DNA of 64,000 nucleotides from Incurvaria masculella (taxonomy: Eukaryota; Arthropoda; Insecta; Lepidoptera; Incurvariidae). The DNA lies in contig OX335652.1 of NCBI GenBank assembly GCA_946894095.1, positions 1,511,001 to 1,575,000 on the forward strand, read 5' to 3'. Shown here piece after piece: positions 2,213 to 34,200 of this stretch (the stretch's first letter is position 1; every line of letters begins with the position of its first letter). The notes beneath the pieces are model-generated. The model ran no database searches. It was given only the letters and a program-made list of their open reading frames with translations, and was not told where the DNA came from. The translations under genes and the position numbers were made by a program.

Positions 2213-3569
2213 ATGTCTGTTCTTCGTTCGTTGGGTGGGCTCCACCGCTCGCTGAGTCTGGGGAACGTGGTGGCACCGGCGGCACTGGCACGTCAACAGT
2301 CCGCTTCATACCACGCTAAAGTAAGAATGTTTGCTGTTGTGCAATGTCAAGGACGATCGATTTTTGCAATGACTTCAAGTTACTGCGCATTTTCACTTTA
2401 GTTCCTACATGATCTTGTACGCTCGTAACCGGTCATATACATGTCGGCAGGTTATCGATCATTATGAGAACCCTCGCAATGTCGGCTCCCTGGACAAAAA
2501 GGACCGCACAGTGGGAACAGGGCTCGTAGGCGCGCCCGCCTGCGGAGACGTCATGAAGTTGCAGATTAAGGTGACATCTACAAGTTATATTTCCATGGAT
2601 TGATTTATCGTATTAAAACTAAACATACAAATGTTTCACAATTTTTTTCTTGTTGCCACTGGAGTTGCGTTAAGTCTTCTGCATCTATTAACAATATTCC
2701 TTGCACTCACTTAATAATGATTATATTCAGGTTGACGAGAACGGGAAGATAATCGACGCAAAGTTCAAGACATTCGGCTGCGGCTCGGCCATCGCCTCCA
2801 GCTCGCTCGCCACCGAGTGGGTGAAGGGAAAGACGGTGGAAGAAGCGCTCAAACTCAAGAACACGGACATAGCAAAGGAACTGTCGCTGCCACCTGTCAA
2901 ACTCCACTGCTCTAGTGAGTACGCTGTGTCCTGTTAATGGTAGTCACTAATATCTCTTGCAGATACATATTGTTAAAACTACATATTCAGATTTTGTTGC
3001 TGAACGAAACAAAAACAAAAATAATGACGAACTATACTGAATATACGCATGACTCGTGTTCTTTATGGCAAAATATTTTTTGCGAGATGAATATGATGAG
3101 TATGGCTTTTATTAGTTCAGGTAATTTTGAATTTTTGGTCATATGTATCTGGCTGCATTACCCTAAGTTTGCTTAGTTTGCAGTAACCTAATTTTGTGTA
3201 AAATATTGGTTTACTACCTTTCCCCGCATCTCGGCCTGTAGGTGGTTGACTTTGGCCAATTTCCACACCGCTGCAGGTTTCCCACTGATATCTTTTGTAA
3301 TTTTAAGTGACTCTCTCAGATGCAAATGAATTCAGTTTTTGCTCTAATCACTGTGGGTTGTAGACTAGACTTTGGCCTATTTTCTTTAATCACCGATGCT
3401 GACTGTTCAGTAATATATTTCCTACTTTATAGCCAATCGCAGATGGAAATTTAAGTAGTTTTGATTCCACACAACTTAAACAAATATTCCACTTATATTT
3501 TCAGTGCTCGCTGAAGATGCCATCAAAGCAGCTCTATCCGACTACAAGATCAAGCAGCAAACAAAATAA
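2213..3569 (+). CDS. ISCU: iron-sulfur cluster assembly scaffold ISCU, mitochondrial
   Basis: Scaffold on which [2Fe-2S] clusters are built from sulfur supplied by the NFS1-ISD11 desulfurase in the mitochondrial matrix. Coding exons are 2213-2320, 2451-2570, 2731-2914 and 3505-3569. All are bounded by GT/AG with matching phases, giving 158 codons. Residues 1-36 are Arg/Ser/Ala rich without acidic residues, as in a mitochondrial presequence. The IscU_N fold follows, starting at [17 protein letters not shown]. The three cluster ligands are Cys67 (GAPACGD), Cys93 (TFGCGSA) and Cys136 (KLHCS). The conserved Asp69 and the chaperone-binding LPPVK (129-133) are present. Met138, spliced across exons 3 and 4, follows the last Cys as in other animal ISCU proteins. 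The start was chosen because the upstream in-frame GTG is not an initiator here. The gene appears intact and single-copy in the window. Confidence 0.95.
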
Positions 3570-3736
3570 TTTAATTTTTAAAATGATTTGCTGGCCTGTT
3601 GGAACCGAGTGACTGAAGTTGGAGAGATCTGTGATTGTATAGAACTTTTAGTTGCTATGTTTATAGTTAAAAAAATACCAAAATTTCAACCAAGACTTTA
3701 GAAGGTTTATGGTAAATCTGCTATCTGTGCTCTTGG

Positions 3737-4288: not shown

Positions 4289-5570
4289 TTAGGTTGGGGA
4301 AAAAGTTTCTTCGCATTTTTTAAGAAAAATCAAAACATTTTTTAATATGGTTTATTTACATTTAACTAAAGTATGTAGGTACCATTTTGTTCGATAACTT
4401 TTTGCCATCTTGTAGGTAGGGACATGATCCCATTGCTATAGAAATATTGGGACTTCTGATCAATATACCGCGACAAGTGGTTTTGGCAGTCCTCTCGTGA
4501 TGTTAACCTGACACTGCCTAAAGAATTCTGAAGAGACCTAAACAGGTGGAAATCTGAAGGTGCAAGGTCAGGACTATACGGCGGATGCATTAACACCTCC
4601 CAGCCAAACTCTCTTAGTTTTTGCTGAGTGGCTAAAGATGTGTGAGGTCTAGCGTTATCATGCGATGAAAAACCACACCCCTTCTGTTGATTAATTTCGG
4701 CCGCTTTCTCTCAACTTCTTGCTTTAATCTCATCAGTTGTTCGCAGTAGAGTTCAGAATCGATGGTCCTGCCTGGTGGTAACAGCTCATAATGAATAATG
4801 CCCTTCCAATCCCACCACACATCACCTTGTTGCGAGTTAACCCGGGTTTCGCCACAGTCTGTGAAGCTTGACCGGCCTTTGACCACGACCTTTTTCGCAC
4901 GTTCTTGTCGTACGTGATCCACTTTTCATCACCAGTTATCAGCTTCTTCAAAAATGGTTCGGTTTCATTACGTCGTAATAAAGAATCACAAATGAGTACA
5001 CGGTTCATTAGGTTTCTTTCAGTGAGCTCGTGAGGTACCCAAATATCGAGCTTTTTTGTGTACCCAGTTTTTTTCAAATGCGCCAAAACTGTTTTGTGGT
5101 CAATTCCTAGTTCTTCAGCTACGTCGTAACTACTGATATGCCGATCTTGCTCCACTTTTTCAAAAATGGCATCCATTTTATCCGTAATAGGGCGACCAGA
5201 GCGACGTGCATCTTTGACATCAAAATTTCCGGATTGAAAACGCTTAAACCAAATTTGTGCTACTCTCACAGACACTGCACTAGGTCCATAAACATCGCAA
5301 ATTTTTTTCGCGGCTTGCGTTGCATTTTTACCTTTTTTGTAGTAAAATTTTAAAATGTATCGAATTTCTTCATTAGATTCACTCATTTTGACAGTACGAA
5401 AAACAAATGAGAATCACACATTTTCCTAATTTGAAATTGCGAATTATGTTCTTTAAAATTTAAACTTTCAATGATACCAAAACCAGCCAGATACAAATAG
5501 TATAGCCAAAGAGATTTTATTACAAGTTCATACATACTATAATGCGAAAAGACTTTTTCCCCGACCTATT
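4289..5570 (-). mobile_element. mariner element, almost full length
   Basis: About 1.28 kb, the usual mariner size. The left end reads TTAGGTTGGGGAAAAAGTTT from 4289. The right end is its inverted partner, ATGCGAAAAGACTTTTTCCCCGACCTA at 5542-5568. Both ends abut TA, the mariner target. A transposase frame fills the interior on the minus strand. The two TIRs differ by a few bases. Exact ends are uncertain by 1-3 bp because TA can be placed in more than one way. Confidence 0.9.
4366..5386 (-). pseudogene. mariner transposase, broken by frameshifts
   Basis: Cut-and-paste DDD/D transposase. The N-terminus (MSESNEEIRYILKFYYKKG, from 5386) carries the paired helix-turn-helix DNA-binding region, including WFKRFQSGNF and GIDHKTVLAHLKK. 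The catalytic motifs are all visible but in different frames: TGDEKW (first Asp), WWDWKG (second Asp) and PPYSPDLAPSDFH (third Asp). A small deletion near 4810 breaks the frame just before WWDWKG. A short insertion near 4690 breaks it again before the third Asp, and the rest of the C-terminus resumes to the stop at 4366. The number of lesions is small, so the copy is fairly young but dead. Confidence 0.9.
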
Positions 5571-10264: not shown

Positions 10265-13200
10265 CTGCAGGCGGGACGCGTTAGCGCGCGGACGGGTTGG
10301 TACGGAATGTGCATTCTTGTGTCGCGTTTCATTTTAATTGTTAAATATTGTTGCTGGATCTATACGGGTGCCGATCTATTAAACTGAGATTCGATTCATA
10401 GGCCAGGAAAATTTGCTTTACATAGAAAAAGGAAAACAATCACAAATATATCTTTATAACTGAAAAATACATAAAGAGTGAAGTGTAAATATGAAAATTT
10501 AAATTGATAAAATAAAACATTCCTTTTTTTAAATCTAAATATATTTAATAATATTTTCTATTACTTACTTATTAATCGAAATAAATAAATAAGAGGGGTT
10601 CAATTATTATTTCAGTAATTTCCATGGCATAAAATTATGGAAGAATTTTAAAATGTTTCCTTGAGGCTACGTAACTGAAATTTAGAAACACATGTCAGGG
10701 AGAACAAACAAACACTTATAGATTGTATAATGTCATTAAAAAATGCAGATGCATTTATAAATTTACAAAAGATTTTACTCAAAAGTTGATTATTTTTAAT
10801 GTCTTAATCGTTTTTAGGGTTCCGTACCCAAAGGGTAAAAACGGAACCCTATTGCTAAGCCTCCGCTGTCCGTCCGTCCGTCCGTCCGTCCGTCCGTCCG
10901 TCCGTCTGTCCGTCTGTCACAGGGCTGTATCTCATGAACCGTAACAGGTAGGAAGCTGAAATTTTCACAGATTATGTATTCATTTTGCCGCTATAACAAC
11001 AAATAGGTAACATTATAAAATAATAAAAATTAAAGGGGGGGGCCATACAAAAAACGTGTTCTTTTTTTGTAAATCCTGTACGATCGTACGGAACCCTTCG
11101 TGTGCGAGTCCGACTCGCACTTGGCCGGTTTTTTATCTTTTTAATGATCTTGCATTAACGGTTTTATTATGGAAATAGTGTTTAATTCTATGTTATGGCC
11201 CTGTTTTACGAAGTTTATATTTCGTTGTTCACATGGACAGGTAATATCGATAGGCTTTCTTGAAACAATTTTAAAAAAGCTGAGGTTGTAATTAGCAGAA
11301 TATTTCAAAGAAAATTAAAATGTATTAAGTTTTACAATCAATGTAATAAAATGTAAATCTAGATTCAAAATGTTAACTAACCAGCCACTTTAAACATAAT
11401 ATGTAGATCCCATTCATAGTAGGTGAATTTAATGTGTTGCTATACATAGTCATTTATATCATTTAAAAAAATCCCCAAACAAAACACCACCCACTTTAAA
11501 TCCACCTGCGTTAAGTGTACACTTACCTAGGCCGCTACGAGAGGGCAATAACTGTGGCCCGTCTCTCAGGCAGACCGCGAATTGTGCTCTAACTCCCAAA
11601 TCTCCTTACACAATACAAGCTGAAACAAATATTCACCGTTTCCCCATTCAGAGTGCGGGCTCCAAGCTTCACGACCAATCATTTTGATACCTATTGCAAT
11701 GGTCAATGTTCGACAGAAAATGGTCGACTTAACCATTTTATCCAAAATATTGAAAACATTACAGAATGAGTTGTCAAGCAATATTATAGGTTATGTTGCT
11801 GTGTTTAATTTTTCTCTTCCACAACTATCCTCTATCGGCACAGAGGCAGCGATATAAAGGGAAAGAATACGTCAAATACTGGTTCCATCGAATCATGTTA
11901 CTGCTAAGATGTACGCGTGCGAGCTACTGGGGTCCGATGGCCTCAGGGTGACAAAGGTAGACACAATGCTATTTACCACGTGAGTGAAAGAGCTAACACA
12001 ATTTTTCCCTGTTGGCGAAACAGTGACACGTTCTAAGATTTGGTAAAGCACCCAAATCTTTCCCAATTATATTGCTGCACTGTAGCCTTGTTAATTTAAA
12101 GGGTGTGATGCATTAGAAGAAATGAGTAAGTAGGAGTGGTTGCCACGGACAGACCGACAGACATATATAGGGTTTCAAGGGCCCAGGGATCTTCCGGTGG
12201 TTCGTTGTAATTTAATTAGGCTACAAGATATCCAGGTGGTTACGCCGGTGTATAAAGTGTGATGTGTAGAGGAGGGATCTCATGAATGTACTTGGTGGCA
12301 GCTCTGCAGCGTGTGGGGGAGGCTGTTCACAGGTTGGGAATGGGTGAATTTGTAGGGAATCGATGAATAGCGAATTAACAGACTACAGTAGGTACAAAAA
12401 AAGATGTAATAAATTATAGACCATTTGAGGCACAAAACACAAACAGACAATCAAAAATACACCCTGGCATTGTCCTATTTAAGACACCTACAAATTAAGA
12501 AAATTGGGCTGTGGCGATCTAACCATCTACCTAAAATAGCCTATATTTAGAAGCACAAAGAAGACTATAAATAATTAACAATCAAGGCGGTGTTCTAACA
12601 CGGCCTTAGCCTAACCTAATATCCAAATGGCCGGGGTTCCATGCCGGGAGCTCGGGGTGGGTCCGAGGTCGTGCGTAGTCGAATGGGCGGTGTCCTGCTT
12701 CAATGGGTGGTCCTGATAGACGCTCTTTGCGGTTTCATCGTAGATTTCTACGGGGGGCTGGCGTTAGAGTATAGGTACCGTGCGGGGATCCAGCAGGCGT
12801 ACGGCGACGCTGTGGTGGTGGGTCTACGTGTTGAAGATGTCGGACCGGCGACTGTGACAGGGCACGGCGGAAGCTGTGGCTGCTGGTCCACGGGCTGAAG
12901 ACATCGGAAGGCGTGGGTGTGGCCTCGAAGTAGATCACGCCCGGCTGCTCACACGGATACGGAACACGGCGGCACGGCGGACGCACCGATATTCGCGAAG
13001 GGTGGTACGCGGGCAGCTCAACCAACTTTTTGGGAGCGAAAGTTTTCACATTTTGTTCATGTCGCCTGACTCCGCGGCCTCGGGACCCGCACTCGTCGGA
13101 GCACGTGGCGCGACCGTGCGTCTCAAGGTGCTGCCCGCTTCTGCCCGTGTCCCGCGGGCGGCGCGGCGGAGGATTGCCGCGTGTTTCGACATTCCCAATC

Positions 13201-16200
13201 GGCGTCGCTAAGGCCCCAGTGGCGAGATCCGGTGCAGCATCTCGCTTGCACCTTGCTGGGAGCGCTGCTGTTGCGTCCTTGTCTTGTGTCTAACGAATTT
13301 AACTCAAACGGCGCTGTTTGTGCACCAGTGCCGAGATCCGGTGCAGCATCTCGCTCGCACCTTGCTGGGAGCGATGCCGTTGCGTCCTTGTCTCGCACTC
13401 AATGCAAAAAGATAATCTCGCCCCTGGTATCGTTACGTCATAAGGCGGCGCGGCGGACGCTACAATACCCGGTTACTTAAAAAACAAAAAAAAAACAAGC
13501 AAAAAAAAAAAAAAGAATTTAAGTACCCTAGACATTTAACAAAGTGACCAGAATGTCACAGTGACTATAACATTAATTGCTGAGCTATAATTGACAGTGC
13601 AAAAGTAATAATTAATACTGAAGCTAACCAAAATGTTACTAATGATAATCTTTACATCAATGTGATATCGATTGGCAAAACTGTTTTAAATTTCTAGACA
13701 TTCAACAGGTTTACAATACTATAAGCCAAGCCCAATGGAATGCTAAAACATCTAAATGACAACAGAAATAGAATTAATATCGAACACAGTGTTATGACAT
13801 TAACATATAAGTAACATTTTTATCAATCAGTAAAATATTTACACACATGTACAAGCTAACACATATTTACAATCCTATGGAAGCCACAGCCCAATGACTT
13901 ATATCCTTTAAGTTGACTTTCATTATTAATAAAAAGTATAAGACGAGTATGAGAAGAAACATTACTAGCCGAAATTATATTCATGAATGTCTTTTTTTTT
14001 TTAAATAAAAACAAGAAAAGCAAGGCATAAAGAGAACAAGTTGTGTCCTTGAGTGTACTTTCAATAATAAGGAAAATTGAGATACGTATAAAAATAAACA
14101 TCACTAAAGAAGTTGTATCTATGAGTGTACTTTCGATAATAAGAATTAAGACAAATAATTTAAGAAAAAAAACATCAATAAAGGAAGTTTTGTCCTTGAG
14201 TGTATTTTCAATAATAAAAATTAAGACAAGTATGAGAAAACATTATTAAGCGAAGTTGTGTCCACCAGCATTATTAAAGCGATAGTAGGAACCACTGTGT
14301 GTTCCGGACATTATATTTCTAACATTCCGTATACTTTCTAAATACTATAAAGTGTCTAGCGACATCCTACTTAAGATGTGTCACTCTGAACGCGAACTAA
14401 CTAACTAACTAACTAACTAACTAAGTACCTACGCTTAAGTATTTTAATTGTATTTATATAATTAGCATGTTTATATCTTAATACAATTTGAATTTTCTCA
14501 AAATCCGTGTTTAATTTTTTCTTTCCGAGAGTTTATATGTTCAGTGGCTCACTATGCCATATTTATTTAGAGTTCCTACTCTTATTGGTCGCTATTGTGC
14601 GCCTATAAATTAATTTTAAGTTTAAACTAAAATTAGCAATATTTACAATTGTACAATTAATACGAAAGTTTTACCAACACTCACGAACGCGTTTTGAGAC
14701 ACATGAAATGATTTGGCAAATAAGACTCAGCAGTCTTCAAAATGGTTTACATTAACCGAATAGAATCCTATGGGAAACGTCATTAACATTTAACCCGTAG
14801 ACGCTCAAAATCCAAAATAATAAGTGCCTTTTTATAAGGGACGCTTTATAAATGTCATATCCTTGTTCTTACCTAGAGTAAATTTTATCTAAATACGACT
14901 TATAAGTATTTTATATACAGGTATGTACAGAGAACATGTGTTGGGAGGGTATGGTTGTTTGGAACTTAAAACTAAATAATGCAACCCAACCAGTCTTATT
15001 ATGCCGACTTAACATAAAAAAACTGGTTGTAATTGGTGAGCCTCAGAGTGAGAACTCGTAAAACCCCTTCAGATCAAGACACGCGAACTGTCTCGTGTCT
15101 CATCTTGGCCCTAGGTAGGTGCCTAGTGCACCGCCTGTCGAGAAGCGTTAAATGGGGTATGGCCTGCACCTAGAGATTCTATAGAATTTTGCCCCCCTCA
15201 TGGGAGGCGGCATCTATCACGAAATACACCATTATGTGTTTTCAGCTGAACGTGTCTGACGCGACGTGTTGCCCGTTACAGTACACTATAGCTGTTAAAA
15301 GAAAAAAAAATAGAGAATAACCAAAAGAACTAACATAAAATAAAGCGCGGTGAATGCGCTGTATGCCTTGTCTACGTAAGTGACTCGGTTGAGACCACTT
15401 ACTAGTGACAGAGGACAGATATGGGGAAAAGGGTAGGAACCACTTGCTTACATCATCATTCACTTATCCTGTCGTATCCTTTCTTTTAAATTATCTATCA
15501 TACTGGGTTGGGTAAGGTGGTTGGTGTTAGGGTGGGAGGGCGCAAGCTTGCTAGGGAATAGGGTGAGGGGTGAGGTTAAGTGAGGTGGAGGTAAAAGAAA
15601 GAGAGAGAAGAAAAAAAAACCCGACGAACGCGAGGCTGGTTTGCTTCGCGGACGTCTGTGAAAGATCCTAACCTAACTAAGAATTTGTCGAACTGATTTT
15701 AACGGATTCGAACAATGTGGAGTGTAGATAAGGCTTATATTTATATGGAGGTTCTACAACCGCCTCCAGCTGTGACGACACAAGAGTGACCGTACACATA
15801 AGTTTGAGAGATAAGGCTTTATTTTTGCTACGCAGGATTCTCAACCAACCGTCCTGCGGGATATTTTGAATAAGGCTTGGGCGTTTAACGTGCGTTTCAA
15901 AAATACCATAAAAAACCGCGCACCGGTGAGTCGATAAGGCTTTAATTTATAACAAAGAACGTTAACTCGACCGCGTTCCATATCGCCCAGGACACATGTG
16001 TACCCAATAGTACATTGTGACACAAGCACATTTTTTTTTTAAAAGACAAAATATTTTTTTTTTTCCAAAGACAAAAATTTCCAAGCACAAGACATATACT
16101 AAAACTTAAATAAACATACCAAAACGAATCTAACCTAGGTAGTGTGTCGGCATGATTTGTGACCGAACACCTAGATGCGGGATAAGGCTTAGATTTATAA

Positions 16201-19200
16201 CACGGATTCCCACGTAACCGTCCGTGAGCAAGGATAGGGCTTTTTATTTATTAACGTGAATTCCCTTGCCAATACCGTTCACGGGATATTTTTTCAATAA
16301 GGCTTTAGATATTAACGTGCGTTCGAAAAATATTCCAAAAAAACAACCGCGCACGACCGACCCTAACCTAACTATTGGAGTATAGCTTGTTTTACTAAAA
16401 AAACTTCTCCAAGAATTACCGTCATCCATGTATCCCTTGACACCTGGCTCCTTTTTAGGGCGTGTGACACAAGATACAATTTAATAGAGAATTTAACCAT
16501 TTAAAAATTTTGTAACTTATTGTTACTTAAAGTTATTGTTTAAATTTATGACCAAATATATCAAAGAAATGCAAACCAGTTCAACAAAAGTTTTAATTAA
16601 TTTTTTTTTTTTTTAGTATTTAATAATATCACTCACATGTATTAGGCCTGCCTTGGAACCATCCATGTTGCCCAAAATGTATGTATTTTCAGATTTTTTC
16701 TCAAGGACCACAGATTTAATAAAACGAGGGGCTAATTTATTTGAAAAGAATTTAGCGGCGTCCGATTGAACATGGGATCGACGCCAGACTATGTCACCTA
16801 CATTGAAATGTATCACTGAACGACGAAGGTTGTAGCGTTTGGCATTAGCTTGATATGCTTGAGTCAGGTTCGCTTGGATTTGATGAAAAACGCTTGCCAA
16901 TGATTTTAAGCTAGTGGTCCATTCGTCGCGACCATCGATAATTAACTCCTCTAATTTAGTGAAATCTGCAAATTTATGGAATCGACCATCGAAGATGAGT
17001 TCTCTACCTGTCATTACAAAATTGGGTGAAAACCCATGGGCTAAGCTGACATGGCTATTTAAAGCTGCCTGAATCTTAGGTAAATTTTTAGTCCAGTTTC
17101 TATGGTCTGTCTCAACATAAGAAGCAATGGCTAATTCAATGGTACGATTGTGTCTTTCCACTGGATTGTTTTGTGGGAAATAGACACAATTTTTGAAAAA
17201 TTTAGGGATATTATACCTTTTTAAAAGTGCCTGAAACTCGTTAGAGACGAACTGCACGCCATTATCACTTATCATACAATATGGCACGCCATAGACTAGG
17301 AAAATCTCATTTTCAATGAATTTAATTATTGACTTACTATTGGCTTTTCTAAGTGGGCATAACCATACAAATTTGGAGAAAATGTCAACTACAGTAAGCA
17401 AGTATGCGTGTCCTGAATAAGACCTCGGCAGAGGACCAATGAGATCGCAACTTAATGTTTGCATTGGAGCGTAGACCTTCTTCTGAAATAACATTTTACC
17501 ATGGGGTAGCTGATTATTAGCTTTAAATGCTAAACAAACTTCACACGAACTTAAGATTGATTTGATTGAAGGAAACATGTTGGGCCAGTAATAATTCAGT
17601 TGTAACTTTTTAAAACATTTAAATGGGCCAAGGTGTGCCGATAGAGGGCTCTCGTGAGTAGCAGTTACTAGCTGTTTAATATGGTCAGCGGGAATAACTT
17701 CTTTCCATGAAAATGAATTTAAAAGATTGAATTTAGGTTTGCAAAAACGAAAGAGCTTATCGTCTTCCAACCTAAAGTTCGGGTAACTAGCGGGTGATTT
17801 TTGTATACTATTTTTTATTTTCAAAAACCACTCATCAGTTATAGGAACGTTTGGGTTGGATGAGTTTACACTTTCGATCTTAATACGTGACAACGCGTCC
17901 GGGACAACATGGAGTTTGCCTTTCTTGTGGACGATATCAAAGGAGAATTGCGAGAGCCTAGTAGACCAACGGGCGAGCCTGCCCGTGGGGTTCTCGAGTT
18001 TATATAACCATTTCAAGCTTTCATGGTCAGTCACAATCGTGAAATGAGTTCCTTCTAGGTAATGTCTAAAATGTGTGGTAGCTTCCACAATACTAAGTAA
18101 TTCCCTTTCGGTGGTAGAAAAACCTTGCTCTTGTTTTGTTAGCGTTCTCGAATAGTAAGCTACGGGGTGTTCCTGAAAATTTGCGTCCTTTTGTACAACT
18201 GCTGAACCAATTCCCACTAAACTTGCATCACAGTGGAGGAAAAAGGGGGCTTCAAAATTGGGAACACATAAAACTGGGGCTGAAGTGAGGGCGGATTTTA
18301 ATTTTACGAAGGCTGCCTCTGCCTCAGGTGTCCAATTAAATTTTGAATATTTTTCAGAGATGGAACTTGTGAGATTGGACAGGGGCGCCGCAATAGTAGA
18401 GAAATTTTTGATGAAACGGCGGTAGTAGGAAGCTAGTCCTAAGAAACTGCGTACATCTTTGACACATTTGGGTGTTGGAAAGTTTTTCACTGCCTCCACT
18501 TTGGCTGGGTCAGTCTTTAAGCCGAACTCGTTTATAACGTAACCGAGATATTTCAGCTCAGATTTTAGAAATTCACACTTCTTTAGGTTAACTGTTAGGT
18601 TAGCGAAATGTAAACGTTCGTAAACTTTGTCAAGGTAAGAAATATGGTCTGCAAAATTGTTGGAAATTATAATTAGGTCGTCTAGATAACCAAACACATG
18701 GTCATCGAATTCTGCACCTGGTAGTAACGCATCGACCAGGCGCTGTAAATTCTGGGGTGCGTTAGATAGCCCAAAAGGGACCACCTTAAATTGTAGTAAG
18801 CCTCGGCCCTGTGAGATAATCGCTGTCTTTTCCTTAGCCGATTCTGCCAGAGGGAGCTGAAGAAATGCCTTAGATAAGTCAATGGAAGAAATATATTTTG
18901 CGTCCTTTAAATTATCAAGAATGTTATCTATGCGAGGGAGAGGATAACTACATTTTTTTGTAACAGCGTTTAGTTTACGAGAGTCCATGCAAAGGCGGAA
19001 GGAGTTGTCCTTCTTGGGTACTACTAACACAGGACTGGCCCAGGGTGACGATGATGGTTCCAGAACATCCAAGTCTATCATTTCATCTATTAATTGGTCC
19101 ACTAACTTTTGTTTGTAGGGTGACATGCGATAGAACCTTTGTTTGATTGGAGGACCTTCGGTATCAATTTCATATTCAAGAAGATGCGTTCGACCTAGGC

Positions 19201-22200
19201 CACATTTTTCAAAAGATATGGACTCAAACTTTTCTATCGTTTTATTTAATATTAATTGTTCATCTGGAGAAAGTTTACAATTACTCGAGTTAGAAATAGA
19301 ATGCAGCTGTTGCGCGTTAGAAACAGAATGCGGGGGCTGTGCGCTCTGAGCGCGATGTGTGGCATTGAGCGCTCCGGAAGAAGGCTTGGTTTCACCGACC
19401 GACGCGAGCGGCACGTACGTAGGGAGGGTGGGCGGGGGAGAATTCGGCCGATACGCTTTGCGTTCTAAGACATCTATTGACTCTTGCACAGAAGCGACGG
19501 CTATTTTGCGGGCCGACTTAATGTCCGGGTTATTATTAGACGGAATGTCGTCCAAAGCTAACAATAACTTAGTAAGTGATTCATCCAACAACTTATAATG
19601 TTTGCTCGAACGGGGGCTGTTAAAGCTAGAAATTTTACTTTTAATGATATCTAAGCTGGAAATAATATCTTTAATTTTTTTAATGGCCCCATCAATGTTT
19701 AATGAAGAAATCTGAAATTCTGACGGAATGGAGAAAGTGATTTTTTTATTTATACAGCCGGAAATTTTTTTTGATAGACCGGACTTTTCCCAAAATTCTG
19801 TGCCTAAAATGCAATCAGATTTAATTTCTGGAATAACTTCAAAAGTAAGTGGAATTTCAATGCCGTCGACCACGATATTGCAATGGATTGAGCCTGGACT
19901 AAATTGTTTAGTCCCGTCTGCCGTAGAAGCGGAACAAATTTTGGACTTGTCTAAAGTATATCCCATATTCAGTATTTCAAGATGTGAATTATTACCAAAC
20001 ACATTTATCTCGGCTCCACTATCTAATAGAGCTGTAAAATCCTTATTATTTAACTTGAAATGAACGTAAGGCCTCCTATCGCCATGTTGGTTTGATAGCA
20101 CCGGGCTAACTTTCGGAAAGTCATGAACAAATTTTAACCAGTCATGCCATTCTTCCGAGGAGGTATAAGTCGCCGGTGCGTTTACCCGTTTTTTGTATGA
20201 GAAGCGGAAGATTGAGGGGGGGATGGGGGGGCCTCGATCGCTCGAATATTTAGTACGAGAGCGGACCGTAGTCAACCCTACGTCATCGAGTAACAACATG
20301 GGACCCATTTGTGGTTGTGCGGATTAGAATAGGCTTCCTAAAAATACTAGGTTGCCTGACCCAAACCTGGAACGTTTTGTGCAGTAGGTAATATTAAATC
20401 ACTTTTTTGGTAGAATTTAACGTCATCGAGTAACAACATGAGACCTAGCACAATTGGTAAAGGTCATCAAGAAAAGCTAAAAAAAAGTAGGTTGGCTCGT
20501 CCTACCCTGGCACGTTCTGAGGTTGGCCGGTTTTAAAATGTCGAAAAATAAAAAAAAATACGTCATCGAGTAACAAGATGACAATACCACCATTCGATAG
20601 TCCTATGAACATCCTTCATAAAAAAATTAGGTTGGCTGCCCTCAGCCTGGCACGTTTCCTACGCGGCCATGTTGAACGTCGGATGCGCCCAGTTCTTATA
20701 TTCATCAATTGTTAAATTAATATAATATAACAGTTTTGTGATATGTATATCTATAAACCGGTGATGTTTTTATTGATCTGAACTCATCTTGGATAGGTAA
20801 AAAAAAAACAAAATGAAATATTTGTGATATATTGATAGTTTGGGTGCAATGGTTGCAAAAAAAATCATTTCAACAAATATTTTTCTTCTGTCGCGCAAGA
20901 TACAACTAAATACATCCAATAAATTGTAAATCTCGCATTAGAGCAACTCGAAATATTTTTACCACGCAATAAGAAGTCTGTCACTTTTGAATCTGTTAGC
21001 TGTTCTGAGATTCAAAAAGTAACAGAGACCTTAAGTCCAAAGGACCGCAAGGTTTATGGAACATATCTACTAATCTGTTAAAGTCCATATGGGGCAGTAT
21101 TATAGAACCTCTTAGAATTGTATTTAAGATGGCACATTTCCAGACTTATTAAAAATTACTAGGGTAATACCATTGCTTAAAAAGGGATCTCATAATGATG
21201 TTGGAAATTATCGGCCTGTGTCCTTACATTCACAGTGTTATTAAAGGTATGTAGGTAAGTGTAGGTCAACAGGAGATGCCATTGCCTTGATGTTAAAATC
21301 TATTTTAACTTCTCTAGTTAAATCTATGAGCACCTACGGCATTTTATGTGATGTATCAAAAGCTTTTGACTGTGTAGATCACAAAATACTTCCAGGAAAA
21401 CTAGAACACTTATGGTGTTAGGGAAAATAAATGAGGTATTTGTAAATTATATATATTAAATAGACAACAAAATTGTGAAGTAAACGGTACTAAGTCTGAT
21501 GTAGAATCAATCACTATGGGTATACCGCAGGGTTCAGTTCTAAGACCGTGGTTTTATATGTTGTTATAAATAATATTTCAAGCTGTATCGCAACAGATAA
21601 TGATATGATTTTATTTGCGGATGACAAATCATCAATTTCAAAAAATCGTATATCAGAACTACGGGAGTCCTTTATACAAGCTATGAACTCACTTAAATTA
21701 TGGTGTGAAGCCAATAACCTACTTTTAAATGACAGTAAAACGAGTTTAATGCACTGGGGACCCAAATACGTAATGTGAATTGTGATGTATTAAATACAGC
21801 AAATGATCTATCTTCAGCTATAACTAAAGAAATAACCTTACATGTGATACTTTTGGGGTTACCGTGGTCGTTAAATATATTTGAAAATTAATATGGCTTT
21901 TCACGCGGCGGGAGGAGACATTCGCCGACGTATCGAGCTGATCGTTCAGCCCGTTGTCAAGGAGATTGTCCGCCACGTTCATACGCAGCAGACGACTGAC
22001 AACTAGGCTCGCCGTGGTCGTAAGTTATAGGTGTGGGTCGAGGTGGTAGCGGAAATGCGGTGATAGCGCTTCTACGGTCTTCCTAAAATTCACAAAGACG
22101 GGAACCCCCTTAGACCAATAGTCAGCCAGATAAATGCTCCTACCTACCTCCTCGCTAAACATGTCGCCTCAATATTTCAACCCCTGTCTGGCAAGACGTC

Positions 22201-25200
22201 GTCCTACGTTAAAGATTCGGCCCATTTTGTGGAATTGTTGTCTACAGGGAAGTTGGCATGCATGGATCTATTAGTGAGCTTTGACGTCGAGTCGCTGTAT
22301 ACACACGTACCAGTCCAAGAGTCCCTCGACATCATCAGAAACTTAGTCATCAGCAACGACATCGACACTGAGTGCGTCAATCTCCTGCCATATTGTCTCA
22401 CTACGACATACTTTCTGTGGCAAGGACAATACTACATCCAGCGAGAAGGTGTAGCAATGGGATCACCAGTGACACCAGTGGTGGCAAACCTTTTCATGGA
22501 ACCGCTGGAACACCGCACATTGCAAACTTCACCTCTTAAGTCAATGTTTTGGGTACGGTACGTGGATGACGTGATTTCAATCTGGTCACATGGTCGCCAA
22601 TCACTCGACGCTTTCATCTCTCATCTTAATTAGGTTCACACAAATTTAAAATATACAGTAGATTGTGAGAAGGTAGGCACTTTGGCGTTCTTGGAAGTAC
22701 TTGTTGCTCGACGATTGGATGGAATCCTAAGCCACACAGTGTACCGCAAGCCGACACACACAAATCGTTGTCTACAAGCTACTTCGCATCATGCTCATTT
22801 TGGTGCATTTGTGTGGGTGCATTTGGAATCGGTCGCAAGAGCATTGAGACTCAGAGCACAGCGGTTGTGTGACAAGGAACATATCTTCACCGAAATGGAC
22901 CCTGTGCTTCGAGAACATGGGTACAATTTTCGCAATGTCGGTCAGTTAGTCAGCGTGTTTGCATCCACTGCTGGACATACGCCTCTCCAATCCTTCTCCA
23001 GTCCTCCCGGCCCTCAGCGGTACGGAACCACTGCTTTCCGCCGGCGCACTTGTCTCATCTTCCCACCTGGCGAGTGGTCTTCCCACACTCCGTTTGCCTG
23101 TTCACGGCCGCCAGTGTAGGACACGGTAACTCCAACGGTCGTCGTCTCTTCGGCTGACGTGACCAGCCCACTGCTATTTGAGCTTAGCCACGCGGTGTCC
23201 AATATCGACTACTTTGGTACGTCGGCTGATTGCCTCTTTACGTACCATATCCCGTAGCGATATTCCCAGCATGGCTCGCTCCATTGCTCGCTGGGCAACT
23301 TTTAACCTTTGGACAACGGCGACCGTCAGAGTCCACGTTTCACACCCGTACGTCATGTCATAACCGGGAGGACGCACTGGTCATATGTTCGGGTCTTTAA
23401 ATTTCTACGGAAGGTCAGACCTTAGAGGGAATTTAAGCTTTCCGAAGGCAGCCCAACCCAGTTGAATCCGTCGCTCAACCTCCAAAGACAGTCCTTGTAT
23501 ACGAAGCCGCAGGATTTGACCGAGATATACGTACTCTTCAACCTGTTCGATCACTTCTACGTCGATAACGATTTGTCCTCCCGTCATACCCTCAGTCGCC
23601 ATGACCATGGTTTTATCCCGGTTCATCTTCAGACCTACCTTTATCGATGCTTTATAAAGGTCTTCCAGCATGGTTTAAAGCTGAACTCGGGAATTTTACA
23701 GAAGAACAATGTGATCGGCGTAGCGAAGATGACTGAGGAAAATATTCACTAACGTTGATACCCATGTTTTCCCATTCAAGCGTCTTGAACACATATTCCG
23801 ATGCGTTTGTAAAGAGCTTGGGTTAGAAAATGTGGGTGAGAAAGTAACGTAAATATAAGATATAAAAACAGACCAAATGGAATTATCGATAACTCTGTAT
23901 CACGATCATTTGAAACCGATTACGGAGTACCTCAAGACTCAATCATGGCACCATTGCTGTTTATTATTTTTATTAATGACATTGCAAAAGACGCTATGCT
24001 AGTACTTCTCGCGAAAACCATAATAATTTACGCTGACGACGCAAATGTAATTGTTACTGATAATAGTATTGAAACACTCCTTACAAAAACAACAAAAATA
24101 ATTGAGGAGTTGGGTAAATGGTTCGCAGCAAATGGGTTAATGTTAAATAGTGCTAAAACACACTGTGTACATTTTAAGATGAAAAATATTAAACATGAAG
24201 TGAATGATGAGATGTTTATCGAATATAACGGTGAAGTCATAACGTTTGCAACATCTACTATATTCTTAGGCTTCACGTTGGATCAAAAGTTACGATGGGA
24301 CAAACACATTCAACATGTTTGTGATAAATAAACAAAAGCTTGTTATTGCCTCAGAACCCTGTCTAAATGCTGTGACTTGGATACCCTGAAGAGTGCCTAC
24401 TTCGGTTATTTATACTCTGTCATGACCTATGGCATTGAGTTCTGGGGTTCTTCACTGGAAGCGGTTTCAGTATTTAGACTACAAAAGAAAGCAATTCGGA
24501 TAATTACACACTCTAAATGGGACGCACTTGTTTGCACGCCTTTGTTTAAAAACCTAAAATTGCATACTATGTATGATGTGTACGTACAAAGAACTATTTT
24601 TTATGTGAGAAATTATCCGGAATCATATAATAATTTTAAACACGGATATTCGACGAGAAATAAAAATTTGATCCAGCCAGCTGAAAAATGGGCTGTCGAA
24701 AACTCCCTCCTGAGGTGTAGAATCGACCACCGCTACATCGAGGTACTCCGAAATCTGTATCGGTCCGCGACGATGACTGTGAGGCTTCATTAAAATACCC
24801 AACCCATCCCTCTTGCTAAAGGCGTTAGGCAGGGGGATGTGATCTCACCCAAGCTCTTCACAAGCGCATCGGAATATGTGTTCAAGACGCTTGAATGGGA
24901 CAACATGGGTATCAACGTTAATTAATATTTTCCTCAGTCATCTTCGCTTCGCCGATCACATTGTTCTTCTGTCAAATTCCCGAGTTCAGCTTCAAACAAT
25001 GCTGGAAGACCTTTATAAAGATAAGTAGTAGAAAGATAGGTAAGTCTGAAGATGAACCGGGATAAAATCAAGGTCATGGCGACTGAGGGTATGACGGGAG
25101 GACAAATTGTTATCTCGGTCAAATCCTGCGGCTTGGTATACAAAGACTGTCTTTGGAGGTTAAGCGACGGATTCAACTGGGTTGGGCTGCCTTCGGAAAG

Positions 25201-28200
25201 CTTAAATTCGCTCTGAGGTCTGACCTTTCGCAAAATTTAAAGACCCGAACATATGACCAGTGCGTCCTCCCAGTTATGAGTGGGCTGATCACGTCAGCCG
25301 ACGAGATGACGACCGTTAGAGTAACCGTGTCCTACACTGGCGGCCGTGGACAGGCAAACGGAGTGTGGGAAAACCACCCACCAGGTGGAAAGACGGCATC
25401 AAGTGCGTCGGGGAAAGCAGTGGGTCCGTACCGCTGAGGGCCGGTAGGACTGGAAAAGGATTGGAGAGGCGTATGTCCCGCAGTGGTCGTAAACACGCTG
25501 ACGGATTGACTGACTGTTCTCAAACCATTGTACTCTTATTTTTTTGTAGGTGGTAGCATTTAAAGGTTTAATATTATGTCGTTTTTTTTGCTGTAAGAAT
25601 AATAACTCATCAGAAGGACTAAATCGTACACAGGTTTTAAAATGTTTTCTTGTTGCCACTGGAGTGTGCACCGCTTTAAGGTCCTTTCTTCAATCCCTGT
25701 CAGCCCATTCCTACGAGATTAGAGGCTTTACATTCGGCGACGGAGCTCCTCATTACATAATTCAAATTTGATTGAATGTAAACCTAATGTAATGAAGAAT
25801 TTTAATAGTCGTAATAAAATAAATCGCCACAAAGTTACTATTCTTTTATTCACAGGACTTTAGGTTAAATATTCATGGTTATTTCCATCCTTTAAACATA
25901 TAAATGTATATGTTTTCTATAACTAATACATAAATATTTTTACAGAGCTTTTCAGGTATTATTTAAACTATACCTACGACTTAAGAGCTGTTAATTTAAA
26001 ATTCCGCTTCGGTTTGGATACATTGCAACTTTGTTACGGTATAATAAAAGAGATACGTAAATATAGAAAAGAGAGTGACGCCAAAGCTTACTAAACTTCC
26101 TTAATATGTGAGTGACGATGTGGACATGTACTTTTGTATAGACTCAGCAACGTTGCGTATATATTTATAGAAAACATATACATTGAAATGTTTAAAGAAT
26201 GGAAATATACTCTAGAATATTTACCATAAATTCATGTGAATTAAAGAATAGTAACTTTGAGATACTTCACTTATGGGTTTAAGTTTTGTGGCGATTTATT
26301 TTATTATGACTATTAAAAAATCTTCATTACGTTATGTTTACATACAATCTGATTAAAATTTTGTAATAACGAGGTCCGTGGCAGAATTTAAAGCGTGCGC
26401 CTCTAATGCCGTAGGCATGGGCTGACTGGAGTTGCGATTCCCTACGTTGAATGATCCATACGGTAGATTCCGAAAGCATATGTATATGAAACTTCCGGTT
26501 TTTACTCTTTAAGTATGCGGAACTATGTGCATCATAACCTAAAGTTAACTTGAGTTAAACTTAGTTAATAATTAGATACGACAATGCCCTAATATCACGT
26601 AATCAATCAATACCTATATCACAAATATTTCATTTTGGTTTTTTTTAACCTATTCAAGATGAGTTCTGATCAATAAAAACATCCCTGTTTATAGATATAC
26701 ATATCACAAAACTGTTATATTATATTAATTTAACAATTGATGAATATAAGAACTGGGCGCATCCGACGTTCAACATGGCCGCGTAGGAAACGTGCCAGGC
26801 TGAGGGCAGCCAACCTAATTTTTTTATGAAGTATGTTCATAGGACTATCGAATGGTGGTATTGTCATCTTGTTACTCGATGACGTATTTTTTTTTATTTT
26901 TTGACATTTTAAAACCGGCCAACCTCAGAACGTGCCAGGGTAGGACGAGCCAACCTACTTTTTTTTAGCTTTTCTTGATGACCTTTACCGATTGTGCTAG
27001 GTCTCATGTTGTTACTCGATGACGTTAAATTCTACCAAAAAAGTGATTTAATATTACTTACTGCACAAAACGTTCCAGGTTTGGGTCAGGCAACCTAGTA
27101 TTTTTAGGAAGCCTATTCTAATCCGCACAACCACAAATGGGTCCCATGGTGTTACTCGATGACGTAGGGTTGACGACGGTCCGCTCTCGTACTAATTGTT
27201 ATGCGGCAGCTCGCGCGCGCTATCGGCGTAGTTCGATGAGTGAAAGTGAGTCGCCGGGGGGTGACTCGCGTTCGGAAAATAAGGTCGGTATTGCTGACCC
27301 CTAGGGCGGTAAGAGTTATTGTATTGGCCTGAATAGACTGGCCTAAAACGAGGATATTGACCGCCATTAAAATTGTTATTGTTGGCGTTGTTAATATAAG
27401 TTGGAGGATTCTGTTGCCTAACACTAAATTGGCCTGCATTATTGTTATACCACGGCGGGTATTGTTGTCCGCTGCGTTGGTGTGACGCTTCAGCACGAGA
27501 TGTGAACCGAGAGTGGGGCTGAGGCGTAGACCTCGAATTTTGGTTACCTTTCGCGGCACATGTGGGACAATTTTTGGACGTGACATTTAGCTTGCCGCAG
27601 TCAAAGCAGATAGGTATTAAAATATTCGGGCAGTTTTTAAAAGAATGGCCCGTATTTTTACATTTGAGACAAGCGTTTGCGTTTGAAGTCGACACTGTCT
27701 CGGCTTTAGGAATATAACTGTTAACTTTGGACACCTCTGATTTGATATTACTGAAGGGGGCCTCATTATTAAAACGTTCAATTTTCTTACCATACGCCAG
27801 AAGGTCGCAAGTATTTTTAATCGTACCGTAAATCAGACATTGATTGTACTTAGGTAACATATTTCGTTTTATTATTTCGAAAAGCATGATATCGGAAATT
27901 TGACCCTTGATTTTATTTGCCAAATCATTCACATCTGTTACAAAATCTGACAACTTCTGGTTAGGTTTTTGTTTTAACGAGCGAATACGGGATTCCGTGT
28001 CGAAAACGTAGTCGATATTATCGTACTCCTCTAACAAGGCTTTCTTAAGCTGGTCCCAATTCGTAACTCCATCCCTCACGGTACGGAACCATTTCAAAGC
28101 AGTGCCCGACAACAAATCAATGAAACATCTCAGTACGATGTCATAGTTAGATTTCCGCGCATAAGTAAGCTCTTCGACACGGGCAATGAATTCACGTACA

Positions 28201-31200
28201 TCTGTTTCACCACTATATTTTAGATTCCAGGACGATAAGTTGTAGTAATGTTTGTTGAACACACAATTTTCGTGGAGACCTTCTGGTTTTACCACGGTAC
28301 TTGAAGATGACTGGTTGGAATCGTTATCCAAGGAAAAAAAACTGGGTCCATAATCACCACCACTACGTGTTACAACATTAACCTCCGACTGTGAATTTAT
28401 GGATTGATTGTCATACATCATTAATTGGTCCTCTGGCATGTCAATGCACACGGAATGGTCCTGGCTTTCCATTTTGTAGTACCTATAATAACTTACTTAA
28501 AATGAGTTAAAAAAAAATTACGTAAATTTCCGTTAACGCGACACGCGACTAGATCGAACGAGACGAAAGCCTGATAACTACAGATTAAGGTTTGTTTTAA
28601 CGAGTGATTAACAATAAGCACGTAGTTAACCTGACTTCCAAATATAACCTACGTGTTCAACGCAAGAGAATAAAGCGAGAAGAAAAAAAAAATTTCACAC
28701 ACGTTATTTACACACACAATACATAAGCATCAAGAACACATAAAATTATACACTTAAATGAAACAGCACATTTCAGTTTTTTTATATTTCGTTGTTTCAT
28801 ACTAACCCAAGAAGTTCCGGATCGCGGGACTGGCCGGTCGCGTGCTCACGTGCTCGCGATTTGTCCACGCGCAACGTGCTATAAGCTATATTTATAAGAA
28901 ATGAGAGAAAGACAAAGAATATGCTCTGCTCTCGGCTTCCAATATATGATGACCTAAAAACCTAAGGAAACAGTGCACACCTATAAGAGCGAGAGTTACC
29001 GCCTTCGTGCGCTATTGCAAGACTCGATATTCTAAAATGAAATAACGTGCGTAAGTACCTATATACCTATTACGTTGGTGGACACAACTCGTTATTGACA
29101 CATTTAATATTCAGTTTTGTTAATTCGCTATTTGCTTACCGTCAGGGCTGAAATGGAGAGTTAATTTGTAGTGTATAAAACAAGTGAGGCGTACCATAAT
29201 AAAATAAATATAATTAATATATACAAATAGGAAATTAAAATAAACCAGTTCGGGTGCCAATTGTAGCCTTGTTAATTTAAAGGGTGTGATGCATTAGAAG
29301 AAATGAGTAAGTAGGAGTGGTTGCCACGGACAGACCGACAGACATATATAGGGTTTCAAGGGCCCAGGGATCTTCCGGTGGTTCGTTGTAATTTAATTAG
29401 GCTACAAGATATCCAGGTGGTTACGCCGGTGTATAAAGTGTGATGTGTAGAGGAGGGATCTCATGAATGTACTTGGTGGCAGCTCTGCAGCGTGTGGGGG
29501 AGGCTGTTCACAGGTTGGGAATGGGTGAATTTGTAGGGAATCGATGAATAGCGAATTAACAGACTACAGTAGGTACAAAAAAAGATGTAATAAATTATAG
29601 ACCATTTGAGGCACAAAACACAAACAGACAATCAAAAATACACCCTGGCATTGTCCTATTTAAGACACCTACAAATTAAGAAAATTGGGCTGTGGCGATC
29701 TAACCATCTACCTAAAATAGCCTATATTTAGAAGCACAAAGAAGACTATAAATAATTAACAATCAAGGCGGTGTTCTAACACGGCCTTAGCCTAACCTAA
29801 TATCCAAATGGCCGGGGTTCCATGCCGGGAGCTCGGGGTGGGTCCGAGGTCGTGCGTAGTCGAATGGGCGGTGTCCTGCTTCAATGGGTGGTCCTGATAG
29901 ACGCTCTTTGCGGTTTCATCGTAGATTTCTACGGGGGGCTGGCGTTAGAGTATAGGTACCGTGCGGGGATCCAGCAGGCGTACGGCGACGCTGTGGTGGT
30001 GGGTCTACGTGTTGAAGATGTCGGACCGGCGACTGTGACAGGGCACGGCGGAAGCTGTGGCTGCTGGTCCACGGGCTGAAGACATCGGAAGGCGTGGGTG
30101 TGGCCTCGAAGTAGATCACGCCCGGCTGCTCACACGGATACGGAACACGGCGGCACGGCGGACGCACCGATATTCGCGAAGGGTGGTACGCGGGCAGCTC
30201 AACCAACTTTTTGGGAGCGAAAGTTTTCACATTTTGTTCATGTCGCCTGACTCCGCGGCCTCGGGACCCGCACTCGTCGGAGCACGTGGCGCGACCGTGC
30301 GTCTCAAGGTGCTGCCCGCTTCTGCCCGTGTCCCGCGGGCGGTGCGGCGGAGGATTGCCGCGTGTTTCGACATTCCCAATCGGCGTCGCTAAGGCCCCAG
30401 TGGCGAGATCCGGTGCAGCATCTCGCTTGCACCTTGCTGGGAGCGCTGCTGTTGCGTCCTTGTCTTGTGTCTAACGAATTTAACTCAAACGGCGCTGTTT
30501 GTGCACCAGTGCCGAGATCCGGTGCAGCATCTCGCTCGCACCTTGCTGGGAGCGATGCCGTTGCGTCCTTGTCTCGCACTCAATGCAAAAAGATAATCTC
30601 GCCCCTGGTATCGTTACGTCATAAGGCGGCGCGGCGGACGCTACAGCACACAGGTACAAGATATTTTTTCCATTGTCTAAAAATAATGATTCAAGGATCC
30701 AGATGATTAAAAATTTTACTAACAAAGCTAGATAATGTGGATTTATTTCTATTGCAATATGAATCACAGAAATATGTTGCAAAGAAGCTTGGGACCGCAT
30801 TTGTGATGTTTCCGCTTGAAGGACTTTGCGTAATCCCAATTGTTCATCACCGGCAAATACGGTAAAATGCGGAACAACATCTGTCCGAATGAGGAAACTG
30901 AATATTTGCGGGAAAAAAATGGAAATGATAAACCGGATGCCATCGTGATGGCATAGGGTTTACCATGACTGAAAAACTCCGGATGCGAGGATGGATGAAT
31001 GCATGTAGCTCGGAGCTGTACGCATTCGCCATCAACACAACTTTTTGTGATTCGTTTTAATATTTTGTGATATGTGAATGCAAAATTTCATCAACATGAA
31101 AAAACGGGTCGAAATAATATTTTTTAAAACAACATTTCAAAGACTCATATTATTTTAATAGAAGTCGATAGACCATACACTTTCTCATTAAAGTTCGTAG

Positions 31201-34200
31201 ATTTTGAGCGGGATAGTCAATGAAAATAAGAATTTTAAGGCTCCCGCTGAAAATGATGTAGTTGTGATTCAAGTCCTCTTGTATAAGCAGTAGGCAGTCA
31301 CCACTTAACAGCTCTTGAAGTAATAAAATAGCTGAGCATGGCTTTAAAGGAGGGGCCTTTAAAACCATGATTGTACGGGTGAAAATTTGCATTACACTCC
31401 ACATATCATTAGAAAAGTCAGAAAGTGTAATACAAAAAATGTATTACAAATTCTGACTCGGTTATCGTGTCCGCGCGCCGGTATGAACCACCCGATTCCC
31501 AATCGTCGTCCAATCCAACTGAAAAAAAGGCATTACATTCTTCGTAAAGTATATAACAAAACCCGCCGCCAGCAAAGTTATTACAAAGTTATCCAACTGA
31601 GTTCGGGTTTCATTCTATACTTACGGTTTCATCCATAGAATTGGGAACAGGCTAGAAATGCCTATCCTCTCCCTTCACTAGCGCGCGCTCGATGCTGACT
31701 TATACTCACCTTCAGAACGTCCAAAATTCAAAATGGCGAAAATTTTTGTTTTATAAAAATATACCTTTAAGAACGACAATAAAATCAGAATCAAATCAAA
31801 TCGTCAGATGTTTGTTTTTCTAATTTTCGGCATTATGCAATTGGCATTTTTGTAAGGTACATGAAGTCAATGCGAAACGAACAAAATCAAATGGTATTTA
31901 ATCAGATTTTTTACATTCTGCAACCAAGCTTTAAAAGGTTAATAAATCTCAGATTTTCATTTGGAGGAACGAAAAGAAGCGGAATGACCCCTCCGGCCGG
32001 CTTGTCAGCCTTGCTTCTGGGACTCTGGCGCTAATCTGAGCTTTAAGAATAACGCACCAGGGAGCAATATAGTTTCGTGTGCCAAACTTTTGATGTTTAG
32101 CAATAAATTACCAAATTGGAGAACCACAGTCGAACAATAAAATGTTTTTGTCGTTTTTCGAGGGCGACGAATTACATTTATAAATATTTATGCAGCAGAA
32201 CATCAGAGTGACTGGTATTAATGGTCAACTTTTATTGTTCTGCGTGATATTTCAACAAATATTTTTTTTAATTTTTGACATTGACCTGGACTATTTCGTG
32301 TTAAAGTAGACAAGGTCACTTCTGTTTTTACAACATGAACTATTACTTCAAGAAGAACTCGCCATGTTGTCAAATGTTTTCCCAAAGTGCATCGGCCCGA
32401 TATGCCATTAACCACTAGCAGGTGTGCGACCAACGCAACTCAATTTGTATGCAGTTTGAATATAAAGACAGCAAAAAGCGCACGGTAGCGAAGCGGAGGA
32501 TAGGCAATTCTAACATGTTCTCAATTCTGTGAGTTCATCTAATACCTACGAAGAGAATTCATACAATATGTAAAATATATAATATAGATTATTAGGTTTG
32601 ATGCAAGCAAGTATGAACATTGTATCTATGGGGCGATGAATAGTTTTCTTAAGTTAGATTATTTTACTTGAAATTTAGCAGATAACACCAACACATATTT
32701 ACTATTTTTTGTGAATAAACTACTATAATGAAATATAATTTCTGTACCGGATTTGAAAATAATAAATAACACATTTGGTAACATTGTCATGAAATGTGTT
32801 CCATGCTATAATGACTCATGCATAGATAATTGCCTCGTAATGTTTTCTTCCTAAATTTTAGCATTTGGGAATTTCTGTGGAATTTGATATCCTTTTCTGC
32901 TTAGCATCAGTCATTGGTGTAATGACAAAGTTCTATAATTAACTTCAAGTTGAGCAGAAAATGAAATTAGAGGCATTCAATTAAAAAATAATAGCAGTAA
33001 CAGTTTGATTAAAAACACATTCGTCTGAAACCTGATGGTCTACCAAACATTTTTCTGCGCATTTAAAGTTAAATAATAATTATAAAAAATACAATGCTTC
33101 TAAAGTTATTAAGGTGACATAGGACCCTAAAACGACCGTAACCGATACGCTATCGTTTTGTATTTTTAGTTTCCATAATAAGCACTTTTATACAAGCTTG
33201 ATTATCGGAAAACCTTGGCTTAAATTAATATAAGTTGGTCCTTGTCATTAAAATTCAAGCATTTAACTGGTTTGAGAAACTTTGAAACGCGTTAACTCCC
33301 ACAACATAAGCGGTAAGGGTATATTATTTAAATATATTATATTGATTAATTAATATTCTAGTGTTGTTTATTATGAAATGTGAGTGATATGAATTAATGA
33401 ATACTTTAGCAATTCTGGGTACATTTGTCCTTGATTTGATATCGTATAGCCAAAATGAAATATATTTCTAAGCGCGACACTAGATACTTGATTAGTAAAT
33501 GCAATAAAATTTTAAAATAATATCCTCACAGCTTATCTCCTGGGAGTTAACGCGCTTCAAAGTTTTTAAAATCAATTTAAGCCTTTATTTTAATTGCAAT
33601 TTTCAATTTTTATAAGTCTAAATTATTATGTGGTTCAAAATCAAGTTTTTCCGATAAAGACATTTGCATAAAAGTGCTTACTATAAGTATAAAACGGTAG
33701 TGTATCAGTAACGGCCGTTCTGGGGTCCTATGTCCCCTTAATATAACTTTAGAAGCTGCTTATGATGCTGTTTATGATGTGGGTGTAACATTCAAATGTT
33801 TATTAAATTAACGCAACAATGACACAAACAGAAAAGAGAACTTTTCTTTTAATTATAATAGCAAATGCAGTAAGCATAATGGCAAGAGTTTACAGTTTCA
33901 CATTATGGCCAAACTTCATTTAAACCAAAAACAGACACGAGTCTGTGACTAACTGGAAATTACCGCACAACACGAAGGCAGACTGTGTGGGAAGAGTGAG
34001 GTGAACCGAGTATATGGGTAGATGGAGCGTGGTGTGGGGTAGAGGTTCCTTTGTATGTACCTTCTTTGCCCAGGCCTGCGTGCCGCAGGCGAGCTCGCGC
34101 GGCGTGAGGAAATTGACGCCCGCGGCGCCAGTGAACGCTCCCAGCCGCCGGGTCGGCTCCAATGTGCTAAGGGATTGAGAGAAGCTCCCCTGTGAACGAA

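Follow-up and report, generated by a model that had tools for sequence, protein, structure and literature searches.

Why transposons should carry long, internally repetitive ends has been a puzzle since Foldback. A 64,000-bp stretch of the lepidopteran Incurvaria masculella (GenBank assembly GCA_946894095.1, contig OX335652.1, positions 1,511,001 to 1,575,000; hereafter the window, whose first letter is position 1) poses this question in an exact form, as it holds an element whose two inverted arms each contain three units of precisely 140 bp. What is this element, what moves it, and why is its period so regular? The original prediction, made from the letters alone, had proposed a foldback-like DNA transposon other than FB. 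We confirmed a foldback-type DNA transposon with three exact 140-bp units per arm, laid out as follows:

20248..20250: left copy of the target site duplication, ATT, from direct reading
20251..27194, forward strand: whole element, 6,944 bp, ends TAGTACGAG...CTCGTACTA
20251..20831, forward strand: left inverted arm
20280..20419, forward strand: unit 1, box A 20281-20300, box B 20348-20376
20420..20559, forward strand: unit 2, box A 20421-20440, box B 20488-20516
20560..20699, forward strand: unit 3, box A 20561-20580, box B 20628-20656
20832..26614: interior with degenerate reverse-transcriptase fragments, from a six-frame Pfam scan
25691..26434: imperfect palindromic block of the interior; the right-hand stretch to which it belongs aligns with the left end region of the coding element described below
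26615..27194, reverse strand: right inverted arm with the same three units
26865-26884, 27005-27024 and 27145-27164, reverse strand: right-arm copies of box A
26789-26817, 26929-26957 and 27069-27097, reverse strand: right-arm copies of box B
27195..27197: right copy of the target site duplication, ATT, from direct reading

While the element itself stood as predicted, its limits were not 20250..27195, and the proposed 2-3-bp duplication proved to be one of 3 bp. The predicted arms of about 580 bp were 97.9% identical over about 581 bp, and in all six units the period was exactly 140 and the starts of box A and box B lay exactly 67 bp apart. Box A (CGTCATCGAGTAACAACATG) matched the window six times at up to three mismatches, every time inside the arms (0.01 expected), and box B, under the same threshold, also six times with none outside the arms (0.00 expected). 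The filler between the boxes, described beforehand as diverged, showed no greater similarity between units than shuffled sequence did (p 0.056-0.614 in six comparisons), with one of the six comparisons reaching p 0.026 once gaps were allowed. This argues for spaced sites and not for a homogenised tandem repeat. Boxes A and B are well-motivated candidates for transposase-binding sites. Unusual RNA folding of the units was not seen (unit 3 z -1.8, other units -0.5 to 1.2), and a search of the element for known structured RNAs or tRNA-like genes found none. Six-frame Pfam scans recognised no transposase in the window copy, their sole match being RVT_1 with E up to 0.01; inverted fragments lay in the interior within 22937-23827 / 24843-25514.

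We then followed the family through the source genome (552 Mb, 31 contigs). As predicted, copies with constant ends were numerous: the exact 18-bp end occurred 532 times, 266 per strand, and the reversed pattern not once. An arm search gave 564 first-look candidates, and all 40 that were scored were 99-100% identical. Among the first 100 listed ends, 94 formed 47 facing pairs spanning 6,048 to 11,241 bp and six were unpaired, one of these being the last place listed. We read 24 complete copies, namely 19 from the arm search, two further copies, two coding copies (C3 and C16, see below) and the window copy; L025, with one arm only in its stretch, was left out, and L001-L008, which overlap the window and other loci, were not counted. 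Identical 3-bp flanks bordered 22 of the 24 (exceptions L015 and L023), in 14 different sequences with 86% A+T. Unit number, expected to vary, was three in each of the 46 arms tabulated. Box offsets were the same in 45 of these arms, the remaining one being shifted by 1 bp in its third unit, and both C16 arms, tabulated apart, had the common offsets. Box patterns gave no matches in the viral contig and genome contig collections searched.

Several memberships were rejected on these data. Tc1/mariner would be expected to duplicate TA, which 14 different 3-bp sequences do not fit; PIF/Harbinger duplicates TWA, found in only 3 of the 22 identical duplications (TTA or TAA); and CACTA has CACTA-type termini, unlike TAGTACGAG. 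Foldback/Mutator (FB, Tetris) needs 8-10 bp, and in the P superfamily (Galileo, P) the duplication is 7 bp for Galileo, going by the excerpts cited below, and 8 bp for the P element, against 3 bp here.

The family looks recently active: some copies of about 8.3 kb are identical or a few bases apart, hundreds of ends are intact, and one transposase frame of 1,463 amino acids (aa) is unbroken. The 8,310-bp copies (n=11) showed 0-4 differences (median 1) and the 8,950-bp copies (n=6) 0-4 (median 2), and the window copy had the same length as L009 with three mismatches; these near-identical copies were drawn from the best arm matches, so that the sample leans young. L031, chosen by length, was ~93-98% identical to L011 in the main aligned pieces, and between size classes long aligned pieces were about 96.6-99.2% alike. 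The long frames of L011, L013 and L031 look reverse-transcriptase-like by reading. None of the 47 paired copies was shorter than 6 kb, that is, there were no miniature derivatives among these intact-ended copies. Most non-autonomous families do have them, and a founder effect or a lower size limit is possible.

A longer copy with a transposase-type gene, which the original prediction had named as ideal support, was found on C3. This coding element measures 11,241 bp and differs in its interior, where two long frames (861 and 637 aa) overlap; the three units of its arms sit at unchanged offsets, and it is flanked by its own TTT duplication. The same protein is encoded at 100% identity on C16, inside the unbroken 1,463-aa open frame, by an element of 11,242 bp that shares these arms and has TTG as its duplication. 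In a genome-wide protein search the transposase occurred at 100% identity in these two places only, which means that most of the spread copies are large elements without it; presumably they moved in trans. The left ~1 kb of the C3 element and the right ~1 kb of the non-coding elements could be aligned at about 90%, which suggests that the latter are derivatives whose interior has been replaced.

The 861-aa piece had 140 database matches at E <= 0.001 among 7,993 candidates scored. Named organisms among the 120 matches listed were Lepidoptera, Coleoptera, Hymenoptera and one spider, and 5 of these 120 bore a Pfam label of any kind. A modelled homologue of the coding protein showed a nuclease fold of the FEN/XPG/Exo1 type and, tentatively, a part resembling P transposase; plain Foldseek returned a single match at E <= 0.001, Xrn2. 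In the AcademX lineage the nuclease is XPG-type, and an Academ-type DDE transposase domain, judged by sequence or phylogeny, would be a further mark of membership.

Taken together, we consider it probable (about 80%) that the window element belongs, as a large non-autonomous copy, to a cut-and-paste family of the AcademX type, that it is mobilised in trans by the protein of ~1,460 aa, and that its period reflects a fixed transposase geometry. We infer the following course. Supplied by the rare 11.24-kb relative with the same arms, the protein would act in trans and bind box A plus box B in each of the three 140-bp units per end. A regular protein assembly would form over the three units on each end, and the ends would then pair. 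Cleavage would take place at TAG...CTA and insertion via a 3-bp staggered cut; the nuclease domain may, speculatively, process the intermediate by trimming a flap or the non-transferred strand. The exact period would then mirror the fixed geometry of the assembly on each end. The DNA helix makes one turn per 10.5 bp, and 140 bp corresponds to about 13.3 turns; as this is not a whole number, simple same-face phasing fails to explain the period, and a wrapped or multimeric complex might account for it. The family would offer a natural two-component system for a little-studied superfamily.

The period also recurred outside the window family. Two loci code for a protein related to its transposase (41% identity), and the element at one of them (C12: 9697417-9706759, 9,343 bp) has ends TAGTCT / TATTCT, a TTA duplication, and arms that align over 432 bp at 93% identity with three units. 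In a scan of lags from 60 to 260, 140 scored best in L040 (45.2; next 26.4), L041 (46.8; next 24.8) and L037 (47.4; next 15.8). L037 (C6), 98.7% identical to L040, represents a further copy of this family and is not independent of it; the second arm of the C6 copy was not found. A satellite array with a 100-bp period adjoins the C6 copy (L042 about 2931-3600, L036 from 1). Counted from one base outside the end, the cores GTAAATGGCTGAAA and TGGTTGC lay at 38/178/318 and 114/254/394, respectively, in both arms of the C12 element. The boxes of the two families differ apart from a short common GGTTG (114 bp from the end in the second family versus 99 in the window family), while the 140-bp period and the unit number of three are the same.

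A third and more distant family that encodes this type of protein, with segments 24-34% identical, has 1,533-aa open frames at eight places with equal or nearly equal scores (among them G000 C1:4095925-4097379, C20:15108382 and C26:22474840) and was possibly recently active too. At the one place whose flanks were read, it had 462-bp inverted repeats at 81% and lacked the 140-bp period. Thus, the rule is confined to part of the group.

These findings suggest a bolder reading, which we put forward tentatively. In one branch of AcademX the transposon end may be a ruler, in which three pairs of transposase sites at a pitch of exactly 140 bp were retained through changes in the boxes, in how far they lie from the end and in most of the transposase. 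Such ends would each hard-wire a three-step synaptic assembly of ~420 bp and could move 7-9 kb of transposase-lacking cargo at a high rate, for which even a single unbroken transposase gene might suffice. Finding the same period with different sequences in two divergent families turns the question 'why repeats?' into a geometric and testable one, and, if true, the ruler-type end is a kind of transposon end of which we found no description in the literature.

Alternatively, the period could be a functionless residue of an ancestral tandem duplication in which too few indels have occurred since. Part of the filler is indeed alike between the units of the second family (fill2 p 0.000, 0.03, 0.005), indicating that those units descend from a duplication. 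In the window family, however, filler identity is at chance level and suggests a divergence of about 2, with a lower bound of about 1.3, yet all five spacings are equal. In simple simulations assuming 5-15 indels per 100 substitutions, the probability of this was at most about 0.0025 for a pairwise divergence of 1.5-2 and at most 0.013 for one of 1.0. Since the period also recurs at 41% protein identity with different boxes and box-to-end distances, we regard a mere residue as unlikely.

Equally improbable in our view is that the boxes bind a host factor, or serve as enhancer, origin or nucleosome-positioning sites, instead of binding transposase, even though 140 bp is near nucleosome length. 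The boxes differ between the two families as the transposases do, which speaks against a host factor but is suggestive only. Precedents for such roles do exist: transposition enhancers lie in the ends of the P element (PMC3688188), and HMGB1 is used by Sleeping Beauty (PMC7827188; papers are cited throughout from excerpts). Finally, it is very unlikely that the element is moved by a transposase from a different superfamily (Tc1/mariner, PIF/Harbinger, CACTA, Zator), with the 11.24-kb coding elements as passengers bearing the same arms: Zator also makes 3-bp duplications (PMC10045372, excerpt) and only two coding copies were found versus 266 ends per strand, but the coding elements match it in arms, ends and 3-bp duplications, in the second family a relative of this very protein goes together with an array of identical period, and the 3/22 TWA, the non-CACTA ends and the 14 different duplications unlike TA oppose the named candidates.

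The window element is itself inserted between gag and pol of another mobile element:

12081..30645, reverse strand: Ty3/gypsy retrotransposon carrying the insertion, long terminal repeats 12081-13464 and 29262-30645

This host retrotransposon is young, its long terminal repeats having one mismatch in 1,384 and its flanking duplication being GCAC; its named relatives include Plutella. The divergence between the arms of the window element (about 2%) exceeds that of the host repeats (Fisher p 4e-6), so the arm differences predate the insertion, and the element came in whole. The other genome copies bear this out: three left/right arm differences were common to all 20 copies compared (19 fetched plus the window). 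We also enumerated the possible element ends at this site and scored each placement by the reading frame of host pol. Among placements with a duplication, the 3-bp reading (equivalent to TTAG ends with a 1-bp duplication) put pol in the -1 frame, with the slip site described below directly ahead of the gag stop, and the TA placement gave +1. Two placements without any duplication likewise gave -1, and the test is therefore a pointer and not decisive alone. The reading with a TA duplication and GTACGAG ends was rejected on the 3-bp duplications across the genome copies.

Just before the host gag stop lies a slip site, A AAA AAC (20182-20194, reverse strand), which is probably a -1 frameshift site. 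Its KK residues were kept in the pol of four relatives (P0006, P0007, P0009, P0010), those in the alignment whose frame reaches there. RNA folding downstream was ordinary (z -0.94, -0.72) and lends the site no support; a search with host gag found one distant relative, not spanning the junction. Between its protease and reverse transcriptase, host pol (16613-20323, reverse strand) further carries a BAG domain, of the Hsp70 co-chaperone kind, at residues about 227-288 (Pfam E 3.5e-10; BAG-domain structure matches down to E 1.4e-10). Precomputed Pfam labels showed BAG in none of the 120 pol homologues listed of 710, and the closest among the matches listed (65%) is without it, the domain being apparently a captured host domain. 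Elsewhere, the window holds two further imperfect palindromic elements resembling miniature inverted-repeat transposable elements (33107-33743 and 48623-48977), with no arm match in window BLAST, and a mariner-type open frame with an HTH_48 (Mos1-like) domain (4733-5413, reverse strand).

How does the window family compare with known systems? AcademX is defined, in the excerpt available, by an encoded nuclease plus 3-4-bp duplications (PMC10045372). The family's coding elements encode a nuclease whose fold, going by the modelled homologue, is of the XPG/FEN type, and 22 of 24 complete copies have duplications of 3 bp, a combination that fits AcademX and not FB, Galileo or MULE. The original prediction of an undescribed family therefore holds in part: we found no report of this family, nor of a 140-bp end array in Academ, in a literature search with most subscription papers and Repbase beyond its reach, and nothing on the element sequences or on lepidopteran foldbacks, but the family fits the lineage of a known superfamily. 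Both the superfamily and the idea of repeated transposase sites are already known. The AcademX descriptions examined, in excerpt, do not contain three-unit 140-bp arrays, 580-bp arms or a size of 11.2 kb, and curated bivalve Academ elements average 5,565 bp (PMC10294476, excerpt).

With Foldback and Tetris the window family shares long inverted ends with internal repeats and a non-coding middle. Tetris was placed in Mutator by its authors and has, in the part seen, 8-10-bp duplications and ~220-bp units about 94% alike in variable number (PMC4079207), whereas the window family has 3-bp duplications, unlike filler and a constant unit number. Galileo, of the P superfamily, resembles it in its long, internally repetitive inverted ends with extra transposase sites in the repeats (PMC3688188, excerpt) and perhaps in the P-like fold match of the modelled transposase, but makes 7-bp duplications and varies in repeat number between ends (PMC3573991, excerpt), in contrast to the 3 bp and constant three units found here. 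An analogue in its way of working is the IR/DR arrangement of Sleeping Beauty (Tc1/mariner), where several transposase sites per end are required for pairing (PMC7827188, excerpt), although it has two sites per end, TA duplications and a different transposase. Thus, such a working principle has precedents in the multiple binding sites of Galileo and the several sites per end of Sleeping Beauty, while for the fixed three-by-140 array the literature examined offered none.

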